From: Pontibacterium sinense
GTDB lineage: Bacteria; Pseudomonadota; Gammaproteobacteria; Pseudomonadales; Balneatricaceae
Assembly: GCF_015209595.1 (NCBI RefSeq)
Contig: NZ_JADEYS010000001.1
Coordinates: 1 to 64,000, forward strand
DNA: 64,000 bases
Direction of reading: 5' to 3'
The notes under the pieces were generated by a model that saw only the letters and a list, made by a program, of their open reading frames with translations, was not told the DNA's origin and did not search any database. The position numbers and the translations under genes were made by a program. Shown piece by piece: positions 23,120-42,301 of the stretch (position 1 is the first letter of the stretch; every line of letters begins with the position of its first letter).

Positions 23120-23121
23120 AA

Positions 23122-23649: not shown

Positions 23650-23656
23650 ACGGGGT

Positions 23657-23692
23657 GCCGATCTAAAAAGCCATTCGGGTTTTTAGATCGGC
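23657..23692. terminator. Perfect 13-bp hairpin, terminator-like
   Basis: GCCGATCTAAAAA (23657-23669) and TTTTTAGATCGGC (23680-23692) are exact reverse complements around a 10-nt loop. The A/T part of the stem would act as the U tract only if transcription ended inside the stem; no T run follows outside it. It lies upstream of the integrase operon and could be an attenuator, an insulator or an operator. Confidence 0.5.
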
Positions 23693-24021: not shown

Positions 24022-24068
24022 AAAAAAATTAGATACCCACCGACCTTGGAAGGTCGGAGGGTATCTAA
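24022..24068 (-). terminator. Strong intrinsic terminator after the TM2 gene
   Basis: A stem of about 19 bp (TTAGATACCC-A-CCGACCTT pairing with AAGGTCGG-A-GGGTATCTAA) is followed on the minus strand by TTTTTTT. It directly follows the TM2-domain gene and should end its transcript. Confidence 0.92.
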
Positions 24069-24084
24069 TTTCAGGCTGAAATCC

Positions 24085-25774: not shown

Positions 25775-25832
25775 GAATTAGCCCCTCAGGGCGTCATATT
25801 GATGGAGCATTAAATCAACAGGAGGTTGATTC

Positions 25833-26834: not shown

Positions 26835-26859
26835 GTCGTGGCTTCTTTCCCAGATATAG

Positions 26860-26895
26860 AGCCCTACTAGCAGCACTGGTCTAGTAGGGCGTTTT
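26860..26895 (+). terminator. Intrinsic terminator
   Basis: GCCCTACTAG pairs perfectly with CTAGTAGGGC and is followed by GTTTTTG. It ends the cysteine-protease-like/nuclease unit 25 bp after the stop codon. Confidence 0.93.
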
Positions 26896-26920
26896 TGTGC
26901 GTTTCATCTCTATCCTATGA

Positions 26921-27517
26921 TCAGTGGAACGAAATAAATTCTTCCATCATCTCCCTCAGAATCAGTACAGCAAATTCCTTAGATACTGTTACAACGGACT
27001 GATCAAATTCATCTTGGATGTAATAGTGGGATTCGTCGTGATGGATGGTAATCCCTTCGTGAAGCCAGAAGACGGCAGGGCCGATCAGTGACGTTTTGTT
27101 GTTACGACGGTTCAGGTTCTTGAACAGTGTATACGGTCCACTGATCGTGACCGCTCCGTAGAGGCCGGTAGAAATTTGCTCCACGGGATGATCATCGAGT
27201 AAGTCGTTAAAGGCTTCAAGTAGATAGTCTTCCCCTACTGCGTCGTCAGCAAGTTCCCTGTTCACTAGCTCAGCCGAGCACTTGGATACTTCCAGAGTAT
27301 ATTCCTGTACCTCATCTACCATGATGAAGTTGGTCTCGCTTTCGTAAACTATTACTCCGCCGTGGAAGAAAACAAATGTTGGTTCATCCTGCCGGAGAGT
27401 GGGTGCTTTGGGATCAGAGTATGAAATTTGGTACACACCATTGATTTCGATACCGCCGTAGGTTGTTGAAACGTTAGTGACTAATTCGTTCTGAGGGGTC
27501 GGTTTGAACTGATACAT
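26921..27517 (-). CDS. Hypothetical protein of two homologous halves
   Basis: A 198-residue soluble protein with an internal duplication. Residues about 15-90 and 108-195 align: YGGIEINGVY with YGAVTISGPY, FVFFHGGVIVYESE with VFWLHEGITIHHDES, DEVQEYTLEVSK with DEFDQSVVTVSK, and ELVNREL with LILREM. Each half looks like a small beta-rich module. I do not know the family. The start at MYQFKP was preferred because GAGG lies 8 nt upstream; a form five residues longer is possible. It is a single gene, convergent with the nuclease pair. Confidence 0.75.
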   Translation of the reverse strand: MYQFKPTPQNELVTNVSTTYGGIEINGVYQISYSDPKAPTLRQDEPTFVFFHGGVIVYESETNFIMVDEVQEYTLEVSKCSAELVNRELADDAVGEDYLLEAFNDLLDDHPVEQISTGLYGAVTISGPYTLFKNLNRRNNKTSLIGPAVFWLHEGITIHHDESHYYIQDEFDQSVVTVSKEFAVLILREMMEEFISFH

Positions 27518-27532
27518 TTTGCTTATCCTCAT

Positions 27533-27818
27533 AGCTGAGCTTCTGTTAAATGATGGTGGAAGTCCCTTTCAATGTATCACGGATTTTTAATTGATCAAGA
27601 CAAGAAATGTCTAATAATCAATTACTTATATAGTGTGTTGCTGGCTTCCTAGTAACCCTGTGGCTAGTGTTCTCGAGACTGGTTAGTAAGTGGTTAGCAG
27701 TAGTATTGGACCGTGATGATATTACTAAGAGGGCAAGGTTTCTTAGTAAGGGATTGCCGCTTAATAGGTGACAAAAAGATCTAGATAGGAAGCCCTTCCG
27801 GAAGGGGAAGGGCTTAGG
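27533..27818. other. Intergenic, with hairpin after the broken integrase
   Basis: Nothing coding is seen. A hairpin AAGCCCTTCC / GGAAGGGCTT at 27790-27815 lies just past the end of the frameshifted integrase gene and may act as its terminator, although a T run is lacking. The rest is AT-rich and presumably holds the promoter of the two-halves protein gene. Confidence 0.5.
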
Positions 27819-29035
27819 TCAGGCCTGGTTACTAAACCTGAGTGCTTGTTCGACGCAGTTAGCGATCTGCTGTCCCGTTTGCTCTAGGCGATTATCGGCA
27901 TAGTGGCTATATCTTTCTGCCATGCGAGAGGATGAGTGCCCCAGAGCAGCCTGTACGTCACTGAGACTGCCGCCTGAGTTGATGATCATTGAAGCGTGTG
28001 TATGCCGAAGCTGGTGGATGCAGAATGGCCCTTTAATCCCCGCTCTTTTGAGCATGCGATTAAAGGCTTTGGTAGGGGATTGGATAGGCTGCGCATACGA
28101 GGACGGTTTCTTAGGGTTCCCTCCTGGAAACAGGTAAGGGTGGCCCGGTATGCGTTGCAGGTTATGGAGTAGTTCAGCCGCCAATCGATTCAGCCGAACA
28201 GTTCTGGACTTACCAGATTTGGTTAAGGGTATGATCCAAGTAGGCCGTTCGCCAACCAGATTAACGTCCTCCCATTTGGCGTTAGCCGCTTCTGAACGTC
28301 TTACACCGGTTAACAGCAGAAACTTAATGTACTGACCGGCGTAGTAGTTTTGATCGCTGTCCGCCGCATCGAATAAGCGCTTAATCTCAGCAGGGCTCAG
28401 GAAGCGTTCACGCTTGTTGTTTTCGATAAGCAACTTGAGTCCAGTGACAGGACTTTTTTCCAAGAACCCCACAGCACGGCCATGTTGAACATGTGGCGCA
28501 CCAAGGCCATGATTCGGTTGTTTGTTGCGGGTTTTAACTTGGCCATCAGGCGATTCTGAAACTGCTGCAAGGTCTGAATGTTAACTTCATCCAACAGCAT
28601 GGAACCGATTGCAGGCTTCACATGATGGGTAAAGCGGCTGTAGTCATTTCTAGAACTGCGTTTAGAGGATGCAGAGTGGGGCAGGTAATGTTTCACCGCG
28701 AACTCTTCCACCGTGAAGGCGGTTTGAGTTCGCAGTTTCTGTTGTTTGGGATCTTCATCCCGACTGAGCATACCTTTGTACTCATTGGCGATGCCTCGGG
28801 CATCCTGCACTGTCAGTGGCCCGTATGCACCAAGCGCGATGCTTCGCTTTCGGCCACGCCACGTGTAGCGCAATAAGAACTTCTTAGAGCCATTTTTACC
28901 AACAAGGCATTTCAGGCCTGACACATCAGCGTCGCTGTACTCCTTTTCCGTGGACTGAGCATCAGCAGGGTTGGGTGGAAGTTGTTCAATCAAGCGGTTG
29001 GTAAACCGAAATCGGGTAGGGGAAGGGCTTCGCAT
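27819..29035 (-). pseudogene. Second tyrosine integrase, frameshifted
   Basis: Two overlapping frames encode the N- and C-terminal halves of one phage integrase of about 405 residues. The first half contains a DUF4102-like arm domain (KFLLRYTWRGRKRSIALGAY) and a core-binding domain ending MFNMAVLWG. The second resumes as FLEKSPVTGLKLL. It contains the catalytic residues in TGVRRSEAANAKW, IHQLRHTHASM, LGHSSSRMAE and RYSHYAD. The break falls at GGGG (CCCC on the plus strand, 28467-28470); one extra G would restore the frame. It could be a real inactivating change, a homopolymer error, or rarely programmed slippage. Confidence 0.88.
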
Positions 29036-29252
29036 AACGCCTCCTGAACGAGTGGGGTTCTTACAATCCCCGACACCTCCTCAAACATTTCACACACGCA
29101 CACTCCATCCTCCCTAGCGGTCTGACGTTTCATGCAAACACACGAAACCGACACATCGGGTGAAACGAAAGGTTCCGGTCTATGTCCGGTCGTCTTGGTG
29201 AAAAAGTGAGTGAATGGTGCGAGAAGGGTGGGGAAAGCGGGGTAGTAGGTAT

Positions 29253-29693
29253 TTACTCAGTCTCTAATGTGACGTCGAGATGGAAGACGCGCATGTCGAT
29301 GTAGTTCATGAAATTGCCTTCCCAGATACGGTAGAAGTTGTGCATATCTTCCAATGCGTAGCGGCCAACGTATCTGACAAAACAGCAACCGGTGGTGAAA
29401 TCGAAATCCACCTCTTTATCCAGTTCACAGTCCTGGCCCGTACCGACGTAGCTGAAGTCTGTGATGTACTCCAGCGTTCCGGTTTCGCCCTGGACTTTCA
29501 CCCGAATCTCTACCGGATGGTAACCGCCTTTATCTGGAGCATAGTCGGGGTCGCGGAAGTTAAAGGTCGCAGCAGTTATGCTCCGGTCAGGGTTCTGGTC
29601 TTGCACCGCTTGGTTCAGATAATCGGTTAATAGGGTCACACACGCATGAGAGAGAGGAAGTGCATGCGCGTCGTGGGGAATTGAAAAAATCAT
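29253..29693 (-). CDS. DUF2787 family protein
   Basis: A 146-residue protein with the pattern of DUF2787 (NFRDPDYAPDKGGYHPVEIR, then ITDFSYVGTG and LDKEVDFDF). These proteins are frequent on integrative elements and plasmids of gammaproteobacteria, but their function is unknown. The start has GGAGG 4 nt upstream and overlaps the preceding stop (ATGA), so it is coupled to the gene before it. Confidence 0.85.
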   Translation of the reverse strand: MIFSIPHDAHALPLSHACVTLLTDYLNQAVQDQNPDRSITAATFNFRDPDYAPDKGGYHPVEIRVKVQGETGTLEYITDFSYVGTGQDCELDKEVDFDFTTGCCFVRYVGRYALEDMHNFYRIWEGNFMNYIDMRVFHLDVTLETE

Positions 29694-30337
29694 GGTTCCT
29701 CCGTTGAGTTAGAGTCATTTTGGGATTTTGGAGATGCAGAAGCCTTTTGGCGCTTAGCCGCCCGTCCCTTTCCGGGGGACGTCGGCGTTTGCGCCTGATC
29801 AGATGAGTCAGCGGCATCAGCTACTGTGGATGACTTGGCATTCTTACCAACGTTATCCACGGTATTTGATGATTCAGGCTGTTCGGAAATTGGTTCCAAA
29901 GCATCCAGGCTTTCCATCCAGTTCTTAACAGGATGGCCAGGTACATGGAAAAAGATCGCTTTTGGAGCCTGAAGCAATACGCCTTCAGCACGCAACGCGG
30001 CACATAGAAAACCCGCATTGTTGGCACTGCCTGCCTTGAAGAGTGATTTAAAGGCAACGGACTTAATCGGCTTATCCGATTCAGCACTTGCCAACAGTTC
30101 GGCAATGTCCGTAAGCGCAATCCACTCCTTCGAAAACAATCCACCGGAGTCGTTGTGAGCAATGCGAATCGCCAATGTCTGGTTATCCACATGCTTACCG
30201 ATCTCGTATGTGATCGAACCGGGAAAGCGTGGGCTTTGCTTTTTCGCTGGATTGGATTTCAGGATCAGGTACCGGGGTTGTACCTCAGATTCAGATGCAG
30301 CCTCTACGCTGCCTGTAGATGCAGTAACATCAGTCAT
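29690..30337 (-). CDS. Hypothetical protein with disordered basic tail
   Basis: A 215-residue protein. Residues about 20-150 appear folded (YEIGKHVDNQTLAIRIAHND, then SVAFKSLFKAGSANNAGF). Residues 150-215 are low-complexity, rich in Ser, Gln, Asp, Lys and Pro, with a basic stretch (PGKGRAAKRQKASASPKS) that could bind nucleic acid. I do not recognise the family. It overlaps the DUF2787 gene by 4 nt and so probably acts with it. Confidence 0.7.
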   Translation of the reverse strand: MTDVTASTGSVEAASESEVQPRYLILKSNPAKKQSPRFPGSITYEIGKHVDNQTLAIRIAHNDSGGLFSKEWIALTDIAELLASAESDKPIKSVAFKSLFKAGSANNAGFLCAALRAEGVLLQAPKAIFFHVPGHPVKNWMESLDALEPISEQPESSNTVDNVGKNAKSSTVADAADSSDQAQTPTSPGKGRAAKRQKASASPKSQNDSNSTEEP

Positions 30338-30402
30338 AGTGTCATCCTAAGCGTTTGGTTAGATGTGAGTGTTGAAACGTCCCAGAACGGGACAGGACAG
30401 GT

Positions 30403-30678
30403 TTAGAGATCGTGGAACTTGGCTACCACGCCGAGTACGATCGCCAGATCATCGCCGTATCCCACGTAGGGAATCATGTCGGGTACAGCATCCGTAGGAC
30501 AGAGGAAATAGAGGAGTGCGGCTATAGCTAATGCCTTGAGCCAAGCCGGGGTATCTGGGTCTTTCAGAAGCCTAAGCAAAGTCATGACCGCTTCGTACAA
30601 CTCGTATGCTTTGCCTCCAAGTTGACGGAGCTTCTCTTTGATCTCATCTTCTGGAATACCTGAATGGTAACTACTCAT
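30403..30678 (-). CDS. YkvA/DUF1232 family small membrane protein
   Basis: A 91-residue protein with the DUF1232 signature: WLKALAIAALLYFLCPTDAV, then PDMIPYVGYGDDLAIVLGVV. Members are small membrane-associated proteins of unknown role. The start overlaps the end of the upstream gene by 8 bp, so the two are coupled. Confidence 0.9.
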   Translation of the reverse strand: MSSYHSGIPEDEIKEKLRQLGGKAYELYEAVMTLLRLLKDPDTPAWLKALAIAALLYFLCPTDAVPDMIPYVGYGDDLAIVLGVVAKFHDL

Positions 30679-31288
30679 CCCTATACCCCTTTAACCCCGA
30701 AAACCCCGATTTAATTAATGGAGGGAGAGATTCATGAGCCCAATCCTGAGCGTAGAGCAGATGCACAGGATCAAAAGCTTCCAGAGAATCAGGGACTTTT
30801 TCATTAAAGGAGCCAAAGGCTAAGTGTTTCAGGACGGGAACGTTCGGACACGTTAACGCCTTGAAGGGCGTGCCGTGTCCGTTGTAACTCACAATCTCCC
30901 ATTGATCAGGAAGATCTATCCAGTACACCGCGTTTTCACAGCAATCACTGACTAATGAACTTGTTCCCGCCAGAGACCACGTATCCTCCAGTACAGCTGA
31001 CTCCCAATCCCGTACCGTTTTACCGGTATGGGAAGCTATACAGAGATTGAGTTTGATTGGTTGGGTGTGCAGGGACTTGGCTGAAAGGGTAGTAATACCT
31101 TCAGCGATGATCAGCAGAACGGGTGTTTCAGGGTTAGGGATGGACAGAGGAACGTATTTGGCGTGCTCGACGATCTCTGCGAGCAGACTGCTCATAGAGA
31201 GATGGGCTGAGCTACTGAGGCTGAGTGCCAGATCTGTAGCGTACTTACCTTCAGACAGGGCTTCATCAAGGGAAAAACCGTCACACAT
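30671..31288 (-). CDS. Hypothetical protein, first gene at island right end
   Basis: A 205-residue soluble protein that I do not recognise. The start at MCDGFSLDEAL was chosen for its AGGAG ribosome site 8 nt upstream; an in-frame GTG or longer form lacks one. It is rich in Leu and Ser, without membrane segments or catalytic motifs that I can see. It overlaps the YkvA-like gene and lies about 220 bp from the tRNA-Phe gene. Confidence 0.65.
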   Translation of the reverse strand: MCDGFSLDEALSEGKYATDLALSLSSSAHLSMSSLLAEIVEHAKYVPLSIPNPETPVLLIIAEGITTLSAKSLHTQPIKLNLCIASHTGKTVRDWESAVLEDTWSLAGTSSLVSDCCENAVYWIDLPDQWEIVSYNGHGTPFKALTCPNVPVLKHLAFGSFNEKVPDSLEAFDPVHLLYAQDWAHESLPPLIKSGFSGLKGYRDE

Positions 31289-31440
31289 GTTAAATCTCCT
31301 GAAAGTTAATTCAGGACATTGATATATGTTTAAGGGCTGCAAAAGCACGGTATTTGAGCGAAGCGTCAAATGCCCTGAAGTTTTGGTATTGGAGAGGGTG
31401 TATTGCAGTTTGTAGGAAGTAGCCAGACAGGGCTAGCAGC

Positions 31441-31465
31441 ACATCCGACCAGAGAACGACCAGAG
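31441..31465. repeat. 25-bp direct repeat, right copy
   Basis: Identical, and in the same orientation, to 12832-12856. It lies about 50 bp inside the right att site, whereas the left copy lies about 230 bp inside the left one. Confidence 0.8.
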
Positions 31466-31478
31466 CCCAGAAACAACA

Positions 31479-31504
31479 AAGGCCTGCATTTGAGTGCAAG
31501 CCTT
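31479..31504 (-). terminator. Terminator of tRNA-Phe
   Basis: On the minus strand AAGGCTTGCA and TGCAGGCCTT form a stem followed by TGTTGTTTC. The same hairpin, with a better T run, is found beside the attL copy. The version next to the intact tRNA was therefore carried in by the element. Confidence 0.75.
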
Positions 31505-31512
31505 GAAGTAAG

Positions 31513-31588
31513 TGGTGCCCAGACGCGGAATCGAACCACGGACACGGGGATTTTCAATCCCCTGCTCTACCGACTGAGCTATCTGGGC
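31513..31588 (-). tRNA. tRNA-Phe (GAA)
   Basis: A 76-nt tRNA with encoded CCA. The acceptor stem is GCCCAGA / TCTGGGC, the D arm contains GCTCAGTCGGTAGAGC, the anticodon loop is TTGAAAA with anticodon GAA, and the T arm is GTGGTTCGATTCCGC. The 3' 48 bases are the attachment site of the island (attR). The coding sequence is complete, so the insertion left the tRNA functional. Confidence 0.98.
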
Positions 31589-31608
31589 AATGTCGTAAGA
31601 CGATGCGT

Positions 31609-31637: not shown

Positions 31638-31898
31638 CAAAGAAAACAGATATTTTTCATAAATTTATCGTTGCTGTGTTGGAATTTGGGGAAATCAGGA
31701 TGTTGTGCTTGAAAAAGTTGAATCAGGCGATGTAATTAGAATGATTATTCAACCGTTTTACGTTGTATTTGAAGGGCTGTGATAAACTGGCTCAGGTCTA
31801 ACAAACCATTAAGTGGGAGTGGGTCGGTAGCCAAGATGGTCTGGATCTATATGTCGAGAAAGTGTGCTTCTTACAGATCAGCCGAACGTGATGTGACA

Positions 31899-33005
31899 AT
31901 GGGTTTGATAGGGGCTGCTGTTGCACCGAAGTATGTTGTTTCTATTCTTTTCCTCCTTCTTCTTTTCAGTAGCCCTGCATCTGCTCATCGTAGTTATGAA
32001 TCTTATTTAACCCTTTCGTTTGATCGGCAGCCAGAGTTGATTTGGGAGATCGAAAGTAACAATTTTGAATTGTTATTCAATTTAGACGATAACGGTAATG
32101 AAATTATTAGTTGGAAAGAGTTGCTAAACCATCAGCAGGAAGTTTTGGAATACGCGCTCAATGAGATATCAGTACGCTTTGATAATCAATCGTTGTTATT
32201 GGAGGTGGGTACAGTAGAAGCAAAACGACGTGGAGATCAGACGTATCTGGTCGTGCATTTTCTATTGCCTGATGATTTTCACCCCGAGAAAATGGGATTG
32301 TCTTATAAGCTCTTTTTTGATGTGGATAAGCAGCAGCGGCTTTTATTAAGTATTTATTCAGTAAAAGGTAAGGATATTTACCTGTTATCTCCTGAAGAAA
32401 GTAGTATTCAGGTCGATATAACAGTTAATAACCTGTGGTTACAGGTGCGTCAGTTTGTGAAAGAAGGGGTCTACCATCTATTCGGCGGTTACGATCATGT
32501 CGCTTTCCTGCTGATGTTGTTATTGGCACATATGAGTCGAATCGACGATCGAAACACTATGTTGGTTGGTCGTCTGATTAAAGTAGTTACGTCATTTAGT
32601 GTGGCGCATACGCTGACGCTGTTTCTGGCGGCCACTAACACCGTTGTGTTACCGATAGCACTGGTTGAGCTGGTTATCGCGATTACGGTAATGGTTTCGG
32701 CATTGAGCAATGCCTTGGGCAGGGCACAGATGCTGAGTTGGCAGGTCGCATTTGTGTTTGGGTTAATTCATGGCTTTGGTTTTGCCAATGTTCTGAATGC
32801 AATTGAGTTGCAGCAAAATCATTACATGGTTTTGTTGTTTAGTTTTAACGTGGGTTTAGAAGTTGGACAGTTACTGCTGGTTTCTGCAGTTCTCCCACTG
32901 TTGTTATGGCTGAGACGTTTCAAGAGCAGTTTTAAGCGTTTTAGGAGTATTTGTTCAATAACTACGATCGCTCTCTCTTTTGTTTGGGTGTTGCAGCGCG
33001 TTTAG
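31899..33005 (+). CDS. HupE/UreJ-type membrane protein
   Basis: A protein of about 368 residues. It has a signal peptide (FLLLLFSSPASAHRS), a periplasmic domain of about 170 residues with an EF-hand-like loop (NLDDNGNEIISWKEL) and a C-terminal six-helix membrane domain. That domain carries FGGYDHVAFLLMLLLAHM, VAHTLTLFLAA and FGLIHGFGFANVLN, the His-rich pattern of the HupE/UreJ_2 family. HupE proteins are linked to metal (nickel) uptake, but members with this long N-terminal domain are mostly uncharacterised. The start is uncertain: upstream in-frame ATGs at 31851 and 31836 are possible. It is followed at 57 bp by the exopolysaccharide operon. Confidence 0.78.
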   Translation: MGLIGAAVAPKYVVSILFLLLLFSSPASAHRSYESYLTLSFDRQPELIWEIESNNFELLFNLDDNGNEIISWKELLNHQQEVLEYALNEISVRFDNQSLLLEVGTVEAKRRGDQTYLVVHFLLPDDFHPEKMGLSYKLFFDVDKQQRLLLSIYSVKGKDIYLLSPEESSIQVDITVNNLWLQVRQFVKEGVYHLFGGYDHVAFLLMLLLAHMSRIDDRNTMLVGRLIKVVTSFSVAHTLTLFLAATNTVVLPIALVELVIAITVMVSALSNALGRAQMLSWQVAFVFGLIHGFGFANVLNAIELQQNHYMVLLFSFNVGLEVGQLLLVSAVLPLLLWLRRFKSSFKRFRSICSITTIALSFVWVLQRV

Positions 33006-33061: not shown

Positions 33062-34429
33062 ATGGTACAGCAGCAAACCCTAGGAAATACGGACAGTTGT
33101 ATAGTGACAGGGGAGAGGCACAGTGGGAAGTTAACGCTAGTGCTAACCTTATTAAAGAGCGCTGAGTGTTTGCGCCCTGTCTTAATTACTCCATTTGAGA
33201 AAGAAACTAACAGCCGGAAAATGGATCAGACCCGCATCTTGGCGTCCAGCTTTTCAGGTTGTGAATCTTTTGAAATCTTATATGTGAAACCGGATTGGCG
33301 CTTACGTAAGCGTGATCTTGGGTTTAATTATCTTATTGATGATCTTCAGCAGGCCGTCGAACATGTACCCGGAGATGCGATCATCCTGCATCGGATAGAA
33401 GAGTTTTTCGAAGTGCAGGATCGCATTCATATTGAACTCTTTATCAGTGCCGTGACCAGTGCCGCTAAGCAGGTGGGGAAAAAGCTCTTTATAACCCTGC
33501 AACATGATGAGGCGCATCAGCTCTATCTGGAACAAGTTGAACGCTATGTCGATTTGGAGCTGTTGGTGGAGAAACCCGTCAATGGCATCGATACTCGGGA
33601 GGTAACGGTGCTTTACTCCTCGTTGCCGGTACAACAATCGAATTTTTCACTGGTGCGCAAAGCACTTGGGCATTTTGCTCTGCAAACTTCGGCGGATATG
33701 TCGACCGAAGAGTCGGTTGATAGCGGAAAGATATTGTTGATTTCGCAAGATACCGCATTGGTCAATAATTTGACTTATCTTCTGCGAGACAGCGATTTTA
33801 GTTTGAAAGTGATTGCGCCGAGTGTGGCTGAGATCGTACACCAGCTAATTTCTCGTCCAGAACTGATTATCTTCGCCGCAGCTGAATCAGAAACAGCTGA
33901 GCTGATGCGAATTGCGCGTGACAATCATCTTAAGGTTCTGCGTATTAGCACCGAGGGTTACGTGCGTAAGCTTGACCGTTTGCAGGCTTCACAGAAGGGG
34001 TATCTGGATCTGCTGGAGAGAAACTTCTATCTGGAAGACTTCGTTCTGGTGGTGGAGCGGGCACTGCGGACACGAATTTACGATACGAGTTTCAGCGAGT
34101 TACCAGAAGAAACCCCGTACTTAGATTGTAAACGAGGCTTCTTTGAGCGTGTACAAACGTTTGTGGATAACGGTCTCTGCTTCAGCATCTTCAGCTTCCG
34201 TACACCGGGAATAACGTGTCTGGAAAATGCACAAGTATTGGCCGGGCGGCCCTATGACATGGTGTGTTATGACGAATACAGTCATACCCTGAAGTTTTTT
34301 GCGGCTAATCTGTTGGCACATAACGCTGCACTAGTGGAACGTAAAGTGCTGGCTTCAGATCCAGACGCAGAATTGCTGGCGATTCAGGAGGCGCATGAGT
34401 TTCGGGCCGGGATCCCGGTCGAATGCTGA
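33062..34429 (+). CDS. BcsE-like three-domain regulator of exopolysaccharide
   Basis: A 455-residue cytoplasmic protein with the domain order of BcsE. Residues about 5-210 are RecA-like NTPase with a degenerate P-loop (G17-x4-G22-K23-L24). Residues about 221-345 are REC-like (KILLISQDTALVNNLTYLL, ISRPELIIFAA). Residues about 350-455 resemble a degenerate GGDEF domain (FFERVQTFVDNGLCFSIFSF, RPYDMVCYDEYSHTLKFFAA) without the active motif. An RxxD sequence (R338-D341) is a possible c-di-GMP site. In cellulose operons BcsE binds c-di-GMP and stimulates synthesis; a similar role for the polymer made here is inferred. Its stop overlaps the start of the TPR-porin gene. Confidence 0.55.
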   Translation: MVQQQTLGNTDSCIVTGERHSGKLTLVLTLLKSAECLRPVLITPFEKETNSRKMDQTRILASSFSGCESFEILYVKPDWRLRKRDLGFNYLIDDLQQAVEHVPGDAIILHRIEEFFEVQDRIHIELFISAVTSAAKQVGKKLFITLQHDEAHQLYLEQVERYVDLELLVEKPVNGIDTREVTVLYSSLPVQQSNFSLVRKALGHFALQTSADMSTEESVDSGKILLISQDTALVNNLTYLLRDSDFSLKVIAPSVAEIVHQLISRPELIIFAAAESETAELMRIARDNHLKVLRISTEGYVRKLDRLQASQKGYLDLLERNFYLEDFVLVVERALRTRIYDTSFSELPEETPYLDCKRGFFERVQTFVDNGLCFSIFSFRTPGITCLENAQVLAGRPYDMVCYDEYSHTLKFFAANLLAHNAALVERKVLASDPDAELLAIQEAHEFRAGIPVEC

Positions 34430-37400
34430 AGCATTGGCTGTATATCGTGTTGTTGAGTCTGTTGCCTTGTCCGGCGATGGCAGTGGAGATTGATGCTGCT
34501 TCTCTTGAGCAGGCGGTGGCGGCAGATCCAGAAGACCTGCGTGCCAGATTGGTATTAGGTCGCTATTACCTGATGGCTGGAGAGTTTGAAAAAGCCAGAG
34601 GGCAGCTTGAAGCTGTTGCAACACTAGACCCGGACTTGCCGTTGACAGCACGACTAACGCGTCAGCTTGATGGAATCCATGAGTTTTCGGATGCTCTTAC
34701 CCAAATAGATCTTGCTAACCCATATGATCAGACGCGTCTTGAACACGTGGTTAACCGCTTGTACAGCGCGCAGGCATATGAGCAGCTAGACACTCTGCTG
34801 GATTGGCTCAAGGCGTATGACTTTAAACTTCCCGTCAGCGTGCGTGAAATTTATGTACAGCGGTTGCTGGACCACAATCGTGTGGATCAGGCGCTAAACC
34901 TACTGGAACAAGCCTCTGGAAATGAACGTAGCCCTCTACTCCTGAGGTTACGCGCTAAGGCATGTCATCGTCTGGAACGGATTGATTGTGCTGTCCACGC
35001 ATACGGACAAGTCTGGAACGCTGAGCGTCAGCTTGACGATGGTTTGCAACTTCTGGCGCTGTTGGTCGAGAAAAAAGACCGCAATAAAGCCCAAATATTG
35101 CTGCAGCAGATGCAGCCGCAATGGCCTGATCATAAGCGCATAGCCGAGTTGAAGGTGGCACTGGATCAGCAAGAACAGGACAGCCAACGTGATCTTGAAA
35201 GTGCCTTTCATCTGAGCCCAGGGGATATCACATTACGTGCACTGGTTTCGTCGTTGTACAACAACAGTCAGCGTGAAATGGCGATTGAAGTACTTGATCG
35301 ATATCTGGCGGAGTTTACCCCTGACAACGATACCCGTTATTTTGCTGCCGAGCGCTACGCTTGGGAAACTCAATACGAAAAAGCACTGACGTTGCTTAGC
35401 GATATTCAACCCAACACGGAAAAGGTTCAGTTACTTCGGGCGCGTATACACGCCTGGCGAGGCGAGCTGGATATTGCAAAGCCGCAGCTACGTCATCTCA
35501 TCGACACGGCCCGCAATCGGGAGATTTTGTTGCAGAGTCGCATGATGATGGGGTTCAGCTATTACTGGGGAGGCGACTTAGCAACAGCTGTTACTTACTT
35601 CGACCCGCTGATGAAAATTGACAGTTCAACATTGGATTATCCTGCCATGGAGGAAGTCATCCTCTTGGGAAACAGGGACTACGACCGACTGATTGAGCTT
35701 TACGAAGCCCGCCTGTTGCAGCAGCCGGACAGCACAGATCTTATGCTGCAATTGGCTAATCTGTTTGAACAAAAGAAAGCCTATTCACAAGCACAGGATT
35801 ATTACGAAGGTTATCTGAAGCTGCGACCGGATGATCATGCGGTTCGCAAGAGGCTGGGTTTGTTGTATATCGAGCACCACGAATATGTTCGTGGTTTTCT
35901 GCATCTTGAGCGGCATGCATTCCAGCAATACAGTGCCGATAGCTTATTCCAGCTGGCTCAACAGTATTATTGGTCCCGTCGTTACGCTGACGCGAAGCGG
36001 ATTCTCGATCAGTTGACTCATCAGTTTCCAGATGACAAGCGGTCGAAAAAACTTGGAGAGCAGATCCAGAAGGAAGAGAAGGGGGCTCCGCTCGCGAAAA
36101 ATATCCGTGATCCCCATCAGCTGGAGCTGGCAAGGAAAGCCTTCGAAGCGGACGATTTCAGAAGTGCTTCAGCTCAGCTTAGCGAGTACCTCCAGCAGTA
36201 CCCCGCGGATATGGAGGCACACTATCTGTATGCCTTCACGTTGGCTCAACAGGGTCAGCATACCGTGGCGGCCAGTGAGTTCTATATCGTCAGTCGCTCT
36301 TATATGAACAGCGATGAAGTGTCCTATCACTATGGCTATAACCTGTCGCGTAGCGGTAACTACCGTGCCGCCCGGACAGTGCTGAAGAAACTTGCGCTGA
36401 AGTTACGAGAGACTCTTGAGCCGTCGTTGCAGCCTGTCCCGGATGAGCTGCAGGCATTTATAGAGAGTTGGCAGCACAGCTGGCAGGCACGAGATTTTTC
36501 TGCGTATAGCAAGCACTATGCTCCGGTATATCGTGAGAATGCTCGCTGGATACAACACAAGTCCGGCTTATTGAGCCGAAACAAGGATATTCAGGTTGTA
36601 CTCAGTGAGCTGGGCGTAGTGAAAGGCGCATCCTATGGTGATGGCGGTATGCGTTATCTGGTGCGCTTTGTGCAGGATTATCGATCTGACAGGTTGAGCG
36701 ATAAAGGCTTAAAACACCTGTTAGTTGATTGTGGCAGCAAGCCTGAAACAGAAGTTAACTGTTTGATTCAAAAAGAAAGCTGGAAAACTCTTCCTGACTC
36801 TGAAAAGAGTGCGGAGGAACAAGCGTATAAGCAGGAATTGTTGAAGCAGGTTGAACAAGAGCTGGAACGATTAGAAGTGGCCGCTCTGGAAAAGTCACCT
36901 CAGGATACGGTTGTGAACACTATCTACTTCGGTGAAGGTGTCGGCAAAGTGCTAAAGCCGGAAGGGGAAGTGTTATCCAGACGTGTTGCCGTTAAAGTAC
37001 CCTCTCATCCAACAGCACAGTTTGGCTTGCTAGCTCGGGACCTGGAAGCAAAGCGAGTGCCGGATGAGGGCATTGAAACGCAGGAACAGTTTGCTTTTCG
37101 GTATCGTACGTTTAGTGACTCGGATGACGTGGAATATCGACGTCCGGAGGTATCTGTGCAAAAAAAGTGGCGTGACTATCAGCTGCAGGCCGCTCTGGCT
37201 GCGGTTGAATTTCGTCAGCCGCAGTGCCGTAACGAACGAGGCTTTCAGTTGGATCTGAACGGCCGTCGCAATGAAATTACGGTTGGGGCTCGTTTGGATA
37301 ACATGCGGGATCAACTGCATCTGATGCCTTATTTGCGCTATCAGACTCAGGCAGAGGGTGTGTTTACAACCTGGTCAATGGATTATAGCTCGCTGTTTTT

Positions 37401-37926
37401 TGACAAACTCAGCTGTGCTTCGCTGGATCGTGAGCTGACGCGTTTGCAGCTTACGTTTAATCAATACCGGGCGTTGGGCCAGAAGCGCTCACTCTGGTAT
37501 GCGTTCGCATTGGGACGTGTCAGCGATGACAATATTGAAACCATCGGCCAGTATGACTACGCATTTTATAAAGGTGAGACGGAACGGCTGGATTACGCCG
37601 CCGCACTTAACGGTTGGTATATCTGGAACAGCCAGCCAACCGATGATTATTATTCACCGGATTTCTACGATTCTAGCCGCGTGCGTCTCGAAGCAACGTT
37701 GGATTTGGGTAAGGAACTGGACCTGATTGCTAACTCCAGTGCCGGTTACACCTTCACCGAGAAGCGTGCCCTGTATGACTACGGGCTCTGGCTAAAGTAT
37801 CCGATGGAGGAACGTGGCGTTGACGCGCGTGTGGGCTGTCAAAAAAGTAACTCTGGACGGACAGCACAAGCGAACAGAGCTTATCGCAGTACGAATTGTA
37901 CGGCGTCACTGGAGTACCAGTGGTGA
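34423..37926 (+). CDS. TPR-rich outer-membrane exopolysaccharide porin (PgaA/BcsC-like)
   Basis: A 1167-residue exported protein. The signal peptide (LYIVLLSLLPCPAMA) is followed by more than ten TPR-like repeats (for example LRARLVLGRYYLMAGEFEKA and LQLANLFEQKKAYSQAQDYY) up to about residue 660. Residues about 674-800 are an NTF2-like domain (FIESWQHSWQARDFSAYSKH). A short coiled coil near 805-830 and a C-terminal beta-barrel ending in EYQW complete it. TPR scaffold plus barrel is the architecture of PgaA and BcsC, which carry polymer through the periplasm and outer membrane. The NTF2-like insert between them is unusual. It overlaps both neighbours. Confidence 0.85.
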   Translation: MLKHWLYIVLLSLLPCPAMAVEIDAASLEQAVAADPEDLRARLVLGRYYLMAGEFEKARGQLEAVATLDPDLPLTARLTRQLDGIHEFSDALTQIDLANPYDQTRLEHVVNRLYSAQAYEQLDTLLDWLKAYDFKLPVSVREIYVQRLLDHNRVDQALNLLEQASGNERSPLLLRLRAKACHRLERIDCAVHAYGQVWNAERQLDDGLQLLALLVEKKDRNKAQILLQQMQPQWPDHKRIAELKVALDQQEQDSQRDLESAFHLSPGDITLRALVSSLYNNSQREMAIEVLDRYLAEFTPDNDTRYFAAERYAWETQYEKALTLLSDIQPNTEKVQLLRARIHAWRGELDIAKPQLRHLIDTARNREILLQSRMMMGFSYYWGGDLATAVTYFDPLMKIDSSTLDYPAMEEVILLGNRDYDRLIELYEARLLQQPDSTDLMLQLANLFEQKKAYSQAQDYYEGYLKLRPDDHAVRKRLGLLYIEHHEYVRGFLHLERHAFQQYSADSLFQLAQQYYWSRRYADAKRILDQLTHQFPDDKRSKKLGEQIQKEEKGAPLAKNIRDPHQLELARKAFEADDFRSASAQLSEYLQQYPADMEAHYLYAFTLAQQGQHTVAASEFYIVSRSYMNSDEVSYHYGYNLSRSGNYRAARTVLKKLALKLRETLEPSLQPVPDELQAFIESWQHSWQARDFSAYSKHYAPVYRENARWIQHKSGLLSRNKDIQVVLSELGVVKGASYGDGGMRYLVRFVQDYRSDRLSDKGLKHLLVDCGSKPETEVNCLIQKESWKTLPDSEKSAEEQAYKQELLKQVEQELERLEVAALEKSPQDTVVNTIYFGEGVGKVLKPEGEVLSRRVAVKVPSHPTAQFGLLARDLEAKRVPDEGIETQEQFAFRYRTFSDSDDVEYRRPEVSVQKKWRDYQLQAALAAVEFRQPQCRNERGFQLDLNGRRNEITVGARLDNMRDQLHLMPYLRYQTQAEGVFTTWSMDYSSLFFDKLSCASLDRELTRLQLTFNQYRALGQKRSLWYAFALGRVSDDNIETIGQYDYAFYKGETERLDYAAALNGWYIWNSQPTDDYYSPDFYDSSRVRLEATLDLGKELDLIANSSAGYTFTEKRALYDYGLWLKYPMEERGVDARVGCQKSNSGRTAQANRAYRSTNCTASLEYQW

Positions 37927-39230
37927 TGAAGGGAGTACTCTTTCTGGCCTTTATTGCCCTGCTGGCAGGGTTGTCGATTTTCTCAGTGATCGAACTGCAT
38001 AGTCTCTATTTCGCCATGCATTCGTTTATCGGCGAGCTGGGCGTGGTGATGCTGCTGATTTTTACGTTACTGATTACTTTGCGTTATCTTGGTTTGATGC
38101 TGTTCTCCATGCTGAACAACATCCGCCGTACGGCGCGCAGGCATAAGCCGAATCGTGACTATCCTAAGGTGTCGATCATTGTTCCGGCTTATAACGAAGA
38201 CGTAGTCATTCAGAAATCGCTAATCTCCATCATGGAGCAAACATATCCGCGACTTGAGATTATTGTGGTAGATGATGGATCTGCCGATGCGACCTTCGTT
38301 AAAGCTAAGCAGTTGGAATACGACAACGGAGTATCGTCGCTAAAAGTACTCCGCAAACCCAACGGCGGTAAGGCGAAAGCGCTCAATTATGGTATGGAGC
38401 ATAGTAGCGGCGAATTGATCATGGTGGTGGATGCGGATTCGAAACTATCTGACGATGCGATAGAGCGGATGGTGCCCTACTTTGATGATATACGTGTAGC
38501 GGCAGTGGCGGGGTCGGTGTACGTAAGCAACCGCATCAATACCCTGACTCGCCTGCAGGCACTGGAATATATCGAAGGCCTTAATATGGCGCGAAACGGG
38601 CAGGCATTTTTTAAGCTTGTATCGATTATTCCAGGTCCGATCGGCGTATTCCGCAAAACCGCTCTGCAAGAGGTCGGGGGGTACGATAGCGATACCTTTG
38701 CTGAGGATGCTGACCTGACCTTAAAGCTGATCGCAGCAGGTTACCGTATCGACTTCGAACCGGAGGCGTTTGCCTATACCGAGGCGCCGGACAGTCTGCT
38801 TGATCTGCTCAAACAGCGTTACCGCTGGACCCGGGGTATTCTTCAGTCGTTGGCAAAGCATAAGAGCATGATGTTGCACGTTATGCGCCGACCAAAGATC
38901 TCTCTGGTACTCTGGTATATGTTTTTTGAATCGATACTCTGGCCATTTATGGATGTGCTGGGGGCTTTGTTTTTCATTTATGTCTCATACACATCCGGTA
39001 CCAGTGCCTTTATATTTTATTGGTGGCTGCTGTTCACTTTGCTGGATCTTGCCGGGGCGTTGTACTGTGTGTTGACTACACGTGAGAGTCTGTCTCTGAC
39101 CTGGTACGCCATTTTCTACCGGCTCTACTTTATCTCTGTGATCAATGTGTCGAAGATCTTTGCGACGATCGAAGAGTGGATGAATCTAAAAATGGATTGG
39201 GGAAAGCTCAACCGGAAGGGGAACCTGTAG
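37926..39230 (+). CDS. Membrane glycosyltransferase family 2 (PgaC-like synthase)
   Basis: A 434-residue processive glycosyltransferase. Two N-terminal membrane helices are followed by the GT-A catalytic domain with IIVPAYNEDVVIQKSL, IIVVDDGSADATF, MVVDADSKL, FAEDADLTLKL and QRYRWTRG (the Q-x2-RW motif of processive synthases such as PgaC, BcsA and HasA). C-terminal membrane helices end it. Given the neighbouring deacetylase, the product is most likely an N-acetylhexosamine polymer such as poly-GlcNAc, but this is inference. The start ATG overlaps the preceding stop by one base; a ten-residue longer form is unlikely. Confidence 0.9.
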   Translation: MKGVLFLAFIALLAGLSIFSVIELHSLYFAMHSFIGELGVVMLLIFTLLITLRYLGLMLFSMLNNIRRTARRHKPNRDYPKVSIIVPAYNEDVVIQKSLISIMEQTYPRLEIIVVDDGSADATFVKAKQLEYDNGVSSLKVLRKPNGGKAKALNYGMEHSSGELIMVVDADSKLSDDAIERMVPYFDDIRVAAVAGSVYVSNRINTLTRLQALEYIEGLNMARNGQAFFKLVSIIPGPIGVFRKTALQEVGGYDSDTFAEDADLTLKLIAAGYRIDFEPEAFAYTEAPDSLLDLLKQRYRWTRGILQSLAKHKSMMLHVMRRPKISLVLWYMFFESILWPFMDVLGALFFIYVSYTSGTSAFIFYWWLLFTLLDLAGALYCVLTTRESLSLTWYAIFYRLYFISVINVSKIFATIEEWMNLKMDWGKLNRKGNL

Positions 39231-39413
39231 ATGGATTTAATCGCATTTATGTCGATGGTGATCCTGATCATCACCATTTTGACGTTGTCATTCGGCGTAG
39301 TCGCCTATTTCCTTTACAAGCTGCGCGAGAAGCGTGCTAAAAAGCAACAACAAGTGACGTACGAAGAATTGAGAGAAGAGAGCGGTGATGACTTCATCTT
39401 CTTTGAAAAGTGA
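39231..39413 (+). CDS. Small single-span membrane protein, 60 aa
   Basis: MDLIAFMSMVILIITILTLS begins a single membrane helix, followed by a basic-then-acidic cytoplasmic tail (KLREKRAKKQQQ ... FIFFEK). Its ATG is directly adjacent to the synthase stop. It takes the place occupied by PgaD in pga operons, where a small membrane protein binds the synthase and mediates c-di-GMP control. It is shorter than PgaD, with one helix instead of two, and I see no sequence similarity. A synthase partner role is inferred. Confidence 0.7.
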   Translation: MDLIAFMSMVILIITILTLSFGVVAYFLYKLREKRAKKQQQVTYEELREESGDDFIFFEK

Positions 39414-41283
39414 GCTAGGGGAAATGATGCGTTTCAACGCTTCCAAGTTATATAGCGCAGGTATTATATTTTTCTTTGCGGTGCTGACCATGAGCAGTGC
39501 GTTGGTAACCTACCAGCTCTATGTAAACTATTATCCACAGGCGGGCGCTGGTGGCAGCGGTGCTTTGGGTGGTAGTGAAGGTGGTTCAACGCTCTACTTT
39601 TTACGTTCAGAAGATACGTTGTCAAAGCTGAATAGTCTGGGGCTTGCGGATTACAATTACATTGATCGTCTTAACACGCTGGCCGATGGATATCGGGCCG
39701 CAGGTTTTGAGGTGAAATATGTTGTTGAACGAGAGATAGCCAGTCTACCAACGAATGCGGCACTGTTTGCGTTCGATACGGTTAATCTTTCAGATACGTC
39801 GATTGCCACTATCAACACGTTTTTGCGTGATGGCGGTTACCTGTTCTTCAACTACCACTTTGGCTTCCACGATGGCGAAACCTACCGTGCTAACGCGGCG
39901 ATCAAAGAGATCACAGGGTTAGAATATTCATCAAAAGCCTCCTACGTTGATACTGAAGATCTTCTATTCATATCGCCTAAAATTCTGTCGCCGTTGAGCC
40001 AGCGGATCTATCCGAAGGGGCACAAGATCGGGGTTGAACTCTATGACCCATTACCGGTGTTTGTCTCCAAGACACTGACCCCCGATGCTATTTCTACCAA
40101 CTGGGCGGGCACTGCCCCACTAGTGGTCACTGAGAACGACGTTGAGCAGGAGCTGACGTATGAGGAGTCTGGTGTGCTTTGGCATGGTCGGTATGGGAAA
40201 GGTAACTGGGTTTACAGTTCGCTGCCTTCATATAGCTTGTTTTCAGCTCCAGAAACTCCCGCTAAGTTGACCCAGCTAATGCAAGGTATTGCACAAGCGG
40301 CCACAGAACCTCTGCCGGTGGTGCCTTATCCCTATTTGGATAAGGACAAAGTGGTATTCGTTTCTGAAGATACAGAATATAAATTTGAATCCTTTCAAGG
40401 CTTTATCAATGCAGCCAATCGCTACCGGGTGCCGGTTACCGCATTCCTGGTTGCAGAGCTGGCCGAACAGTTTCCAGAGATGGTGAGAGAGGCTGCTCGC
40501 AGCCCTTATATTGAACTGGGGTCCCACAGTTACACTCACAAGAAAATCACGGAGACGGGCGAGGCAAATATCGTCAATGAGACGAAAGGATCTAAAACGC
40601 TGATCGATAAGATAGCCAACGATGACATCATGGGGTTTCGTCCGCCGCGTGAAGAGATCGATGAGCAGATGAACAGTATTCTTTCCGGTGCGAACTTCCG
40701 TTATGTATTGGAGAAGCGTAAAGACTACAAATACCCGACGATCGAGAGCATGGAAGCACCTTTATACGTTATTCCACGAAGCGGTACTGATGATTACCAG
40801 TATCTGGTCAATCTGGATTGGGATGCTGACGCTATTTTGCAGCGAATGATTGAGGAAACCGAGATAATCACTTACATGGATGGGTTATATAGCCTCAGTA
40901 TTCACACTCATCTGATGGCCTATAAAAAGAATATCAAAATTGTGGAAAGGTACTTTGAGTATCTGAATACTCAGCCGCAGCTAACGCCCATGACTGGAAT
41001 TGATATTGTTACCCGCGCCCGACAGGCGAAACAGATTCGCTACGAGGTGACCCCAACCCGTAAAAACTTCCTGATCCGGGTGAGTAATGACAACGGTGAA
41101 TCAGTTGAGCGCCTGATTTTCCGTGCATATTGGCCGCAGGGTAAGGTGCTGGGTGAGATCACTGCAGAACTGGTTGGTGCTGAGATCGACTACGCTCACA
41201 ATGTTGAACAGGGGTATACAGAAGTAACGGTGCACCACCTCAGTCCGAAGTCTGCTCTGAGTTTAATCGCTTCCTATGAATAA
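39388..41283 (+). CDS. Polysaccharide deacetylase (NodB-like) with N-terminal domain
   Basis: A protein of about 631 residues with an N-terminal membrane anchor (YSAGIIFFFAVLTMSSALV). An approximately 270-residue domain recalls a ThuA/glutaminase-like fold, then comes a NodB-type deacetylase domain with FVSEDTEYKF, GSHSYTHKKI (metal-binding His pair), MGFRPPREE, LDWDAD and SLSIHTHLM. A C-terminal beta domain ends it. It would de-N-acetylate the polymer in the periplasm, as PgaB does. The start may instead be the ATG at 39427 (MRFNASKLYS), which has AGGGGA just upstream; the longer form overlaps the previous gene by 26 bp. Confidence 0.85.
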   Translation: MTSSSLKSELGEMMRFNASKLYSAGIIFFFAVLTMSSALVTYQLYVNYYPQAGAGGSGALGGSEGGSTLYFLRSEDTLSKLNSLGLADYNYIDRLNTLADGYRAAGFEVKYVVEREIASLPTNAALFAFDTVNLSDTSIATINTFLRDGGYLFFNYHFGFHDGETYRANAAIKEITGLEYSSKASYVDTEDLLFISPKILSPLSQRIYPKGHKIGVELYDPLPVFVSKTLTPDAISTNWAGTAPLVVTENDVEQELTYEESGVLWHGRYGKGNWVYSSLPSYSLFSAPETPAKLTQLMQGIAQAATEPLPVVPYPYLDKDKVVFVSEDTEYKFESFQGFINAANRYRVPVTAFLVAELAEQFPEMVREAARSPYIELGSHSYTHKKITETGEANIVNETKGSKTLIDKIANDDIMGFRPPREEIDEQMNSILSGANFRYVLEKRKDYKYPTIESMEAPLYVIPRSGTDDYQYLVNLDWDADAILQRMIEETEIITYMDGLYSLSIHTHLMAYKKNIKIVERYFEYLNTQPQLTPMTGIDIVTRARQAKQIRYEVTPTRKNFLIRVSNDNGESVERLIFRAYWPQGKVLGEITAELVGAEIDYAHNVEQGYTEVTVHHLSPKSALSLIASYE

Positions 41284-42301
41284 GAATCTCTTGAACAGGC
41301 TACATCGTTGGTTGGTGGTCTGTTCGACCATCATGATGGTCTCGATGCCGGTTGAGGCACGTTTCTATCTGGGTGTGGGGGGATATGAGGTTTGCACCGC
41401 AGAGAATCAGCTCACCGCTTACCGTGATAATTGTCCACAGGCACATGTACCGGTTACGGATCTTTTACCGGTGTTGGCTCCAAATACCAATGCAGTCTCG
41501 ATCTGGATAAACCGGGACTGGCAGGAAGACTGGTATAGCGCCGAGGATATCCAGCACAAGTATATCGATCGTGGATACACACCAGTGTTCATTTTTTACT
41601 GGTTTGCCGACGACATCAGTCCTGAATTCGTAGAAACGAACCGCGAAGCCTATCTCAAGGACCTGCAACGCTTCACCACGTTCATTCAACAGATTGATGG
41701 CGAAAAGCTGGTTATTCTAAACCCGGAATTTAACCAAAACGGTATTGGTGCATATGCTCCGTTTAATGATCTGCTGATTGAGAGTATGCAGATGGTGCGT
41801 CAGGCACCGGATACAAAGGTGAGCTTTTGTGTTGGGGACTTCGGAGACTACAGCTATGTCCGTGATCTGCAAAACTGGAAGACGTTTCATCCCAGTATAG
41901 TGAGAGCGGCGCAAGAAGCTGATTTTATAAGCTTTCAGGAGATGCGTGCCGTGACCCGAAATTCTGTGCAGGGGCTAGATCAAACGCCATACCGTGCACT
42001 GGAGTTTGCGCGGTATCTACACGAGACCTACAACAAACCGACGTTTTTTGCGTATCTGGCACTATCGAGTTACGGATCTGAGGGCGAGGATGTGCAGGAA
42101 GCTGTGTACAAGCAATTCTCTGCGTTACTGCCGATCTTTAAACAGCAAGCAGACCTGATTGGATTTAACAGTTTCCACCTGTTGGACGTGCCTTATCATC
42201 AGGGCTATTTCAAAGAAGCGGAAAAGCATTTCGGTTTGATGGATCAGCGCGGGCGAGAGAAAGGGGCGATGGAAGCATTTCGTCGCCTAAATACGAACTG
42301 A
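41276..42301 (+). CDS. Periplasmic TIM-barrel glycosidase-like protein
   Basis: A 341-residue exported protein (signal peptide WLVVCSTIMMVSMPVEA). The mature part looks like a (beta/alpha)8 glycoside hydrolase: YTPVFIFYWFADD, VILNPEFNQNG and FISFQEMRAV place two glutamates at the ends of presumed strands 4 and 7. I cannot assign a GH family by eye. In pga operons the hydrolase is fused to the deacetylase in PgaB; here it is a separate gene overlapping the deacetylase stop by 8 bp. It probably trims or releases the exopolysaccharide. Confidence 0.7.
   Translation: MNKNLLNRLHRWLVVCSTIMMVSMPVEARFYLGVGGYEVCTAENQLTAYRDNCPQAHVPVTDLLPVLAPNTNAVSIWINRDWQEDWYSAEDIQHKYIDRGYTPVFIFYWFADDISPEFVETNREAYLKDLQRFTTFIQQIDGEKLVILNPEFNQNGIGAYAPFNDLLIESMQMVRQAPDTKVSFCVGDFGDYSYVRDLQNWKTFHPSIVRAAQEADFISFQEMRAVTRNSVQGLDQTPYRALEFARYLHETYNKPTFFAYLALSSYGSEGEDVQEAVYKQFSALLPIFKQQADLIGFNSFHLLDVPYHQGYFKEAEKHFGLMDQRGREKGAMEAFRRLNTN

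Follow-up and report, generated by a model that had tools for sequence, protein, structure and literature searches.

A probable exopolysaccharide operon in Pontibacterium sinense headed by a BcsE-like protein

In a 64,000-nucleotide stretch of the Pontibacterium sinense genome (the window; contig NZ_JADEYS010000001.1, positions 1 to 64,000), six genes on the plus strand between positions 33062 and 42301 probably constitute a synthase-dependent exopolysaccharide operon with a BcsE-type regulator that responds to cyclic di-GMP (c-di-GMP). The open reading frame (ORF) listing of this 64-kb window confirmed the compact layout given in an earlier note made from the sequence alone, with every pair of neighboring genes overlapping or abutting. 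In order, the genes encode a BcsE-like leader protein, a tetratricopeptide repeat (TPR) porin, a family 2 glycosyltransferase (GT2) synthase, a 60-aa protein with a single helix, a deacetylase, and a TIM-barrel hydrolase. A survey of gene order found the same arrangement in 15 of 16 homologous loci, which come from Gammaproteobacteria, Campylobacterota, and one unclassified metagenome-assembled genome (MAG), and the arrangement is therefore not a product of chance. The sixteenth locus (L032) begins inside the GT2 gene, its 5′ end having been lost at the end of the contig.

Relationship of the leader protein to BcsE

The earlier note read the leader as having the NTPase-like, REC-like, and GGDEF-like order of BcsE, and both structure prediction and profile comparison bear this out. 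A model of the leader generated with AlphaFold2 (AF2) from an eight-row alignment (predicted local distance difference test [pLDDT] 79.9, predicted TM score [pTM] 0.49) contains RecA-like, REC-like, and GGDEF-like secondary structure in that order. When this model was compared with the Protein Data Bank (PDB) using Foldseek, the five best chains all belonged to Escherichia coli BcsE (E 1.6e-14 to 1.2e-13, 480–491 columns), followed by KaiC, so the predicted fold is BcsE-like. VIA-align placed the N-terminal domain (NTD) close to KaiC and RecA (Z ~16) and residues 220–337 close to the KdpE receiver domain (Z 15.6 over 115 residues, root-mean-square deviation [rmsd] 2.3 Å). BcsE was not among the best 50 VIA-align matches of the leader, an absence that is uninformative because matches to the NTD fill the list. 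A profile of the 15 leader orthologs also found receiver domains by sequence, with a best E of 2e-6. For the GGDEF-like part, the AF2 model, the match to BcsE, and an aligned sequence motif (see below) all point to the same assignment.

The comparison of profiles gave a consistent picture. Using hhalign, the leader profile, built from 15 of the 16 loci, matched a profile of seven BcsE proteins with Prob 74.7 (single-pair E 2.6e-5); the match spans 335 columns, from residue 87 of the window leader on. The score of 49.1 is to be set against a best of 22.2 in 100 column shuffles and 16.9 for the reversed profile. The two N-terminal halves matched each other with E 4.9e-5 (Prob 67.8, 73 columns) and the two C-terminal halves with E 7.8e-4 (Prob 24.9, 154 columns), while the cross controls, in which an N-terminal half was paired with a C-terminal half, gave E 0.25 and 0.27, worse than like with like. 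As judged from sequence profiles and the model, the leader is very likely a divergent relative of BcsE.

Synthase, porin, and enzymes, and the likely kind of polymer

The synthase is a PF00535/PF13641 protein with hydrophobic stretches at both ends, as read by eye, and PilZ is not among its Pfam matches. Its best NCBIfam model is PgaC/IcaA (TIGR03937), which it matched with 195.5 bits against a cut-off of 422.3. In a tree holding 14 of the 16 operon rows (L062 and L032 were left out), a branch separated the 14 operon GT2s from six PgaC proteins in each of the 200 bootstrap replicates, a group test in which 14 ungrouped rows were not counted. With all rows counted, the support for the operon branch was 94/87 and the deepest, joining branch was weak (70/67).

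The product of the fourth gene has one hydrophobic helix by eye, in agreement with the earlier note, together with a basic stretch and a conserved C-terminal tail that ends in [IV]-[FY]-[FL] in eight of nine aligned sequences. The ninth, from L026, has no such tail; in that locus (L026:11668-11890), the conserved tail lies in a different frame after a run of A, through a sequencing error or a frameshift, and we left the frame unmended. By analogy, this small protein may work like BcsF rather than like PgaD.

The NTF2-like insert that had been noticed in the porin was confirmed as a Cds6_C domain (Table 1). The domain is also present in the porins of L005 and L029 and is not listed at E ≤ 0.01 in that of L027. 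A profile of six porins matched a PgaA profile, itself made from five of six operons (none was recovered from L118), with Prob 91.0 and E 1.1e-6 over profile columns 26–361, that is, within the TPR part; against a PgaA-type barrel, the C-terminal 330 residues gave only Prob 12.8 and E 0.0022. In L030, L031, and L068, the porin is spread over two ORFs, one with the TPR part and one with the barrel part, which reflects either a real split or an assembly error; these ORFs were left unjoined. Elsewhere in the window (1068-3736) lies an outer-membrane efflux protein (OEP) gene that likewise carries a Cds6_C domain (E 4.8e-15) and is adjoined by an HlyD-family gene.

The deacetylase matched PF01522 with E 8e-16 in the window, and PF01522 was found in all nine members analyzed. 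Its carbohydrate esterase (CE) domain aligned with a PelA-like profile (Prob 92.9, E 3.7e-7, 128 columns) and with a PgaB profile (Prob 63.1, E 7e-5, 152 columns), which suggests that the enzyme is distantly related to both PgaB and PelA and somewhat closer to PelA-like sequences. We named CE4 motifs 1 to 5 after PMC12022489 (published papers are cited here and below from excerpts) and from general knowledge. H381, H385, R419, H507, and H509 are invariant (16/16), as are motif 1 (S-E-D-T-E) and the candidate residues of motifs 2, 3, and 5; W479 of motif 4 is present in 15 of 16 sequences. The D-x-E spacing in motif 1 recalls D528-x-D530 of PelA, and the motif-3 arginine, which PelA lacks (PMC12022489), is kept in all 16 operon deacetylases. 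N-terminal of the CE domain, there were sub-threshold matches in some orthologs and none in the window protein. Those to Glyco_hydro_42M (5/9) and ABC_transp_aux (4/9), around residues 53–165 in four orthologs, were below cut-offs and were not used as evidence of a PelA-like architecture.

The hydrolase of the window had no Pfam match at E ≤ 1, and among nine orthologs, five families were each touched by a single member (best E 0.033). Its AF2 model is a confident TIM barrel (pLDDT 89.6) that matched TIM-barrel glycosidases, among them 6gpa (Foldseek E 1.1e-10, VIA-align Z 21.1), with VIA-align Z values of ~21–22 to enzymes of glycoside hydrolase clan A (GH-A). E151, E222, D112, D188, and D304 are invariant (16/16), and E151 and E222 were also found in two remote paralogs. 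By our own count of DSSP strands, E151 follows strand 4 and E222 lies in strand 6, whereas the catalytic Glu pair of clan GH-A has one residue at the end of strand 4 and the other at the end of strand 7. Sequence searches of the PDB returned no related family. No relationship to PgaB was found by hhalign (E 0.49 and 0.39), and a PelA-like profile gave E 0.59, or 0.38 with the two remote paralogs included; the latter profile comprises six sequences cut at the locus ends (ORFs of 768–825 aa, taken as PelA from a PF03537 match and their length). The PgaB and PelA hydrolases were not among the best 50 VIA-align matches of the model, an absence that carries no information. In the galactosaminidase families GH114, GH135, GH166, and GH191, the catalytic pair is Asp/Glu (PMC12054363); because the invariant pair here is E151/E222, we did not assign the hydrolase to any of them. 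Taken together, sequence and model indicate that it probably represents a new glycosidase family. Remote relatives were seen outside the operon in the phylum of L029 (L069, L070, and L071; ORFs of 417–876 aa, E 1.7e-35 to 5.0e-32), hinting at a wider unnamed family around the hydrolase; L069 and L070 had no Pfam match at E ≤ 0.01 and entered only the 18-row hydrolase tests, and L071 was left out.

The earlier note had called the locus pga-like, with the functions of PgaB split. The logic of porin, synthase, small protein, deacetylase, and hydrolase does stand, and the deacetylase and hydrolase are separate genes. Descent from pga, however, does not stand: we rejected it on the GT2 score below the PgaC cut-off and the separate position of the GT2s in the tree, the lack of a detected relationship between the hydrolase and PgaB, and the low Prob of the porin's C-terminal part against PgaA. 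Since the hydrolase shows no relationship to PgaB and the deacetylase only a distant one, "split PgaB" holds as an analogy. A stronger form of the idea would make this a divergent pga operon, with a GT2 that synthesizes poly-beta-1,6-GlcNAc (PNAG), a reduced PgaD as the small protein, and a PgaB that has come apart into two proteins. It can draw on PgaC/IcaA being the best synthase model, on the functional logic, on the distant resemblance of the deacetylase to PgaB, and on the match of the porin to PgaA. Yet the synthase score is far under the cut-off, the bootstrap trees keep the operon GT2s apart from PgaC even if the deeper joining branch is weak, the porin resembles PgaA within its TPR part, only one helix is seen in the small protein, and the hydrolase does not match PgaB. 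We regard a divergent pga operon as unlikely.

We would give a little less credit to a system that is Pel-like in function, with a GalNAc-rich polymer and a split PelA. The CE domain is somewhat nearer to PelA-like proteins than to PgaB, the motif-1 spacing is reminiscent of PelA, and one of nine hydrolase orthologs had a weak Spherulin4 match (E 0.047). Set against this, the motif-3 arginine is kept in the deacetylase, and the match of the hydrolase to the PelA-like profile is not significant. The synthase, moreover, is a GT2 enzyme, whereas PelF is a GT4 enzyme. The GH114 family (PF03537) is unmatched in the P. sinense genome, and membership in pel is not supported.

The putative c-di-GMP site and a proposed mechanism

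Two motifs of E. coli BcsE hold an intercalated c-di-GMP dimer, R306ATD in the degenerate receiver domain (REC*) and R415TGD in the degenerate GGDEF domain (GGDEF*), and the reported dissociation constant falls from ~2.5 μM to ~140 nM when both motifs contribute (PMC11470070). The leader aligned one to one with these sites (R302-R306, D305-D309, G313-G317, R396-R415, D399-D418). Among the 15 orthologs, R302, R396, and D399 are conserved in all and D305 in 14, with Glu in L026; R302 and R396 are the sole invariant arginines. R338, which the earlier note had picked for mutation in a c-di-GMP binding test, is present in only one of the 15 and was dropped as the I-site arginine in favor of R302-x-x-D305 and R396-x-x-D399. 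The broader suggestion of that note, that the operon may be under c-di-GMP control, fared better: because both BcsE I-site motifs are conserved, such control is likely, as is reception of c-di-GMP by the leader. No GG(D/E)EF signature follows R396xxD399 in any of the 15 rows, so the leader should act as a receptor and not as an enzyme.

Alternatively, the leader could be a relic of the fold that no longer senses c-di-GMP and serves as an assembly or NTP-binding factor, as might be argued from G22-K23 of a degenerate Walker A motif, invariant in 15/15, and from the dominance of the RecA/KaiC-like domain among the fold matches; that both RxxD motifs are kept, with the only invariant arginines, in spite of an identity to the window leader of no more than 17–25% in 13 of the 14 other orthologs, makes this improbable.

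We favor an exopolysaccharide operon with a BcsE-type receptor, and propose the following mechanism for it. The GT2 would polymerize an N-acetylated amino-sugar chain and move it across the inner membrane, a membrane-anchored deacetylase and a periplasmic hydrolase would trim the chain, and the TPR porin would export the partly deacetylated polymer. As the regulator of the system, the leader would bind c-di-GMP through a composite REC*/GGDEF* site (R302xxD305 plus R396xxD399). BcsE is recruited in E. coli by dimers of the single-pass protein BcsF, whose C-terminal tail adds a beta-strand to the sheet of the BcsE NTD (PMC11470070). By analogy with BcsF, the 60-aa single-pass protein would probably use its cytosolic tail to keep the leader at the synthase. 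Since PilZ is unmatched in the synthase and the neighboring genes include no two-helix PgaD, the leader would be the main c-di-GMP sensor and not an auxiliary one.

As far as gene content tells, the operon is not tied to cellulose, since 13 of the 15 carrier genomes, that of P. sinense included, have no match to BcsB, and in these genomes no genomic link between the leader and cellulose synthase genes was seen.

Several observations weigh against this interpretation. BcsB is present in the other two carrier genomes (G686 and G687), and completeness is stated for only three of the 15, so cross-talk with cellulose is possible in some. The curated BcsE model PF10995 (CBP_BcsE) had no match to the window leader and a single one, at E 0.16, among eight orthologs, which is why we speak of a divergent relative of BcsE and not of BcsE itself. 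Identity to E. coli BcsE is ~12% (40/327 paired residues), hhalign against the single E. coli sequence gave Prob 0.4, and the match is significant only with profiles on both sides; the C-terminal halves also had a low Prob. The whole-chain Foldseek TM of ~0.3, the rmsd of 19–28, and the pTM of the model mean that the orientation of the domains is not reproduced; as the inter-domain arrangement is uncertain, the fold evidence applies domain by domain and to their order. Sequence similarity between the small protein and BcsF is not demonstrated. In motif 1 of the deacetylase, another residue replaces the second Asp found in the classical DD pair, so the deacetylase activity of the gene 5 product is put forward as a prediction, and binding of c-di-GMP by the leader is likewise predicted from its motifs.

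If a BcsE homolog with both motifs does operate in a non-cellulose operon, "activation by proxy" would be a more general mode of c-di-GMP control over polysaccharide synthases, which suggests that BcsE-type sensors also control other biofilm polymers; R302 and R396 make this a specific, testable prediction. The operon would also point to an uncharacterized biofilm polymer of bacteria from marine and from sulfur- or vent-associated habitats (as taken from organism names and general knowledge), and to a hydrolase family, not yet named in Pfam, whose members might degrade this polymer. A further-reaching idea, to which we give even chances, is that BcsE/BcsF, instead of being specific to cellulose, belongs as one branch to a c-di-GMP receptor module that is older and transferable. 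In the Gammaproteobacteria and Campylobacterota that carry this operon, the module would serve a PilZ-less GT2 synthase as its primary sensor; the product would be an undescribed deacetylated amino-sugar polymer, processed by a hydrolase from a new glycosidase family.

Distribution, surroundings, and relation to known systems

The six-gene system is rare and patchily distributed. Homologous operons were found in Marinobacterium jannaschii (L005), in one genome of the same class (L026), and in a Methylococcales MAG (L027); in Campylobacterales, Sulfuricurvum, and Nautiliaceae MAGs and the unclassified MAG (L029–L033); and seven more times (L062–L068) in genomes from the phylum of L029. Two duplicates (L028 of L005 and L034 of L029) were each counted once with their originals. 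The BcsE-like protein was found in two of 57 near genomes, P. sinense included. Of 369 genomes in the class, 81 had matches to the deacetylase, at full length in two including its own; in the other 79, only parts around the CE core aligned. The hydrolase was confined to its own genome among 293 of the order, and in the phylum of L029 it had matches in 17 of 347 genomes, eight of them strong (E ≤ 4.8e-123) and nine to remote relatives only. A scan of genome contigs with the BcsE-like protein as a single query returned 37 stretches, none confirmed, and a plasmid search gave no match. In the GT2 tree, L026 clusters with L030 and L031 (96/94), which suggests horizontal transfer of the operon.

In seven loci, all on the Campylobacterota side (L029, L033, and L062–L066), a gene of ~600 aa resembling a histidine kinase lies upstream of the operon, as if it supplied a second signal input. 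HATPase_c and TPRs were identified by Pfam in the L065 protein, and the other six were matched to it by BLAST (E ≤ 8.8e-129). In the window, the place directly upstream on the operon strand is taken by a gene for a HupE/UreJ-like membrane protein, separated from the leader gene by 56 nt (Table 1). Such genes lie beside or in the operon in five of 16 loci (the window, L027, L030, L031, and L068), and in L068, the gene sits between those for the deacetylase (gene 5) and the hydrolase (gene 6); the protein is possibly an overlooked operon component. A promoter and terminator scan yielded no more sites than shuffled sequences.

At lower coordinates, the window probably contains a genomic island (~13200–31600). 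Integrase domains are found at 21989-23119 and at 28400-29035, the latter followed by an overlapping second ORF that looks integrase-like by eye. PADLOC reported candidate-defense matches at 13257-15785 (PDC-M26A, E 6.2e-19) and 25833-26834 (PDC-S26, E 2.1e-15). A tRNA-Phe gene (31513-31588) separates this region from the operon.

Table 1. Features of the operon and the adjacent upstream gene (window coordinates)
Feature	Position	Strand	Basis and remarks
HupE/UreJ-like membrane protein gene	31779..33005	+	PF13795 E 6.2e-40; possible accessory gene
BcsE-like leader, 455 aa	33062..34429	+	RecA/KaiC-like NTD 1-213; degenerate REC ~220-337; degenerate GGDEF ~355-450
R302-K-L-D305 motif	33965..33976	+	Aligned to E. 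coli BcsE REC* I-site R306ATD
R396-P-Y-D399 motif	34247..34258	+	Aligned to E. coli BcsE GGDEF* I-site R415TGD
Outer-membrane export porin, 1167 aa, periplasmic part with TPRs	34423..37926	+	TPR matches and syntenic homologs; barrel part inferred
NTF2-like Cds6_C domain within porin, residues 676-770	36448..36732	+	PF24125 E 6.6e-12
GT2 membrane polysaccharide synthase	37926..39230	+	From ATG; ORF opens at TTG 37896
Small protein, 60 aa	39231..39413	+	One hydrophobic helix (by eye); candidate BcsF-like or PgaD-like partner
Deacetylase, 632 aa	39385..41283	+	N-terminal hydrophobic anchor (by eye); CE4-type domain; C-terminal part without assigned fold
TIM-barrel glycoside hydrolase, 341 aa	41276..42301	+	Export signal by eye; candidate catalytic E151, E222

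We found no characterized locus of this kind in the titles, abstract openings, and excerpts obtained from the open-licence PMC literature. Nor did any title or abstract opening among the papers listed there place BcsE or its GIL domain in an operon unrelated to cellulose; studies of BcsE have treated it as an accessory to cellulose secretion of the E. coli-like type (PMC7439463, PMC11470070). Because the search covered open-licence papers only, we provisionally regard the operon as a new form of synthase-dependent exopolysaccharide secretion, equipped with a c-di-GMP module of the BcsE/BcsF type.

The closest parallels are found in known exopolysaccharide systems. With E. coli BcsE of type II cellulose secretion (PMC7439463, PMC11470070), the leader shares the NTPase*-REC*-GGDEF* order and both I-site motifs, and as with BcsE/BcsF, its operon also has a gene for a short membrane protein of the single-pass type. 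Unlike in E. coli, where bcsF directly follows bcsE, the small-protein gene comes after those for the porin and the synthase, and none of the six genes resembles BcsQ or BcsR, a comparison that covers the operon genes only. The low identity to BcsE, the unmatched PF10995, the GT2, deacetylase, and hydrolase partners, and the scarcity of BcsB among carriers set the system further apart from cellulose secretion. With E. coli pgaABCD, it shares the logic of its components; it differs in its GT2, its separate deacetylase and hydrolase genes, a hydrolase not detectably related to that of PgaB, the single helix of the small protein, and the BcsE-like leader. PgaB clades without the hydrolase domain were reported in the survey of Bundalovic-Torma et al. 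(PMC7112194), in the excerpts of which the six-gene operon is not described; BcsE is named once in the main text of that survey, outside these excerpts. With pel, finally, the common ground is a CE domain distantly related to that of PelA and export through a TPR porin (PMC12022489), whereas the synthase is a GT2, the hydrolase has a gene of its own and is not detectably related to that of PelA, and the motif-3 arginine of the deacetylase is kept.

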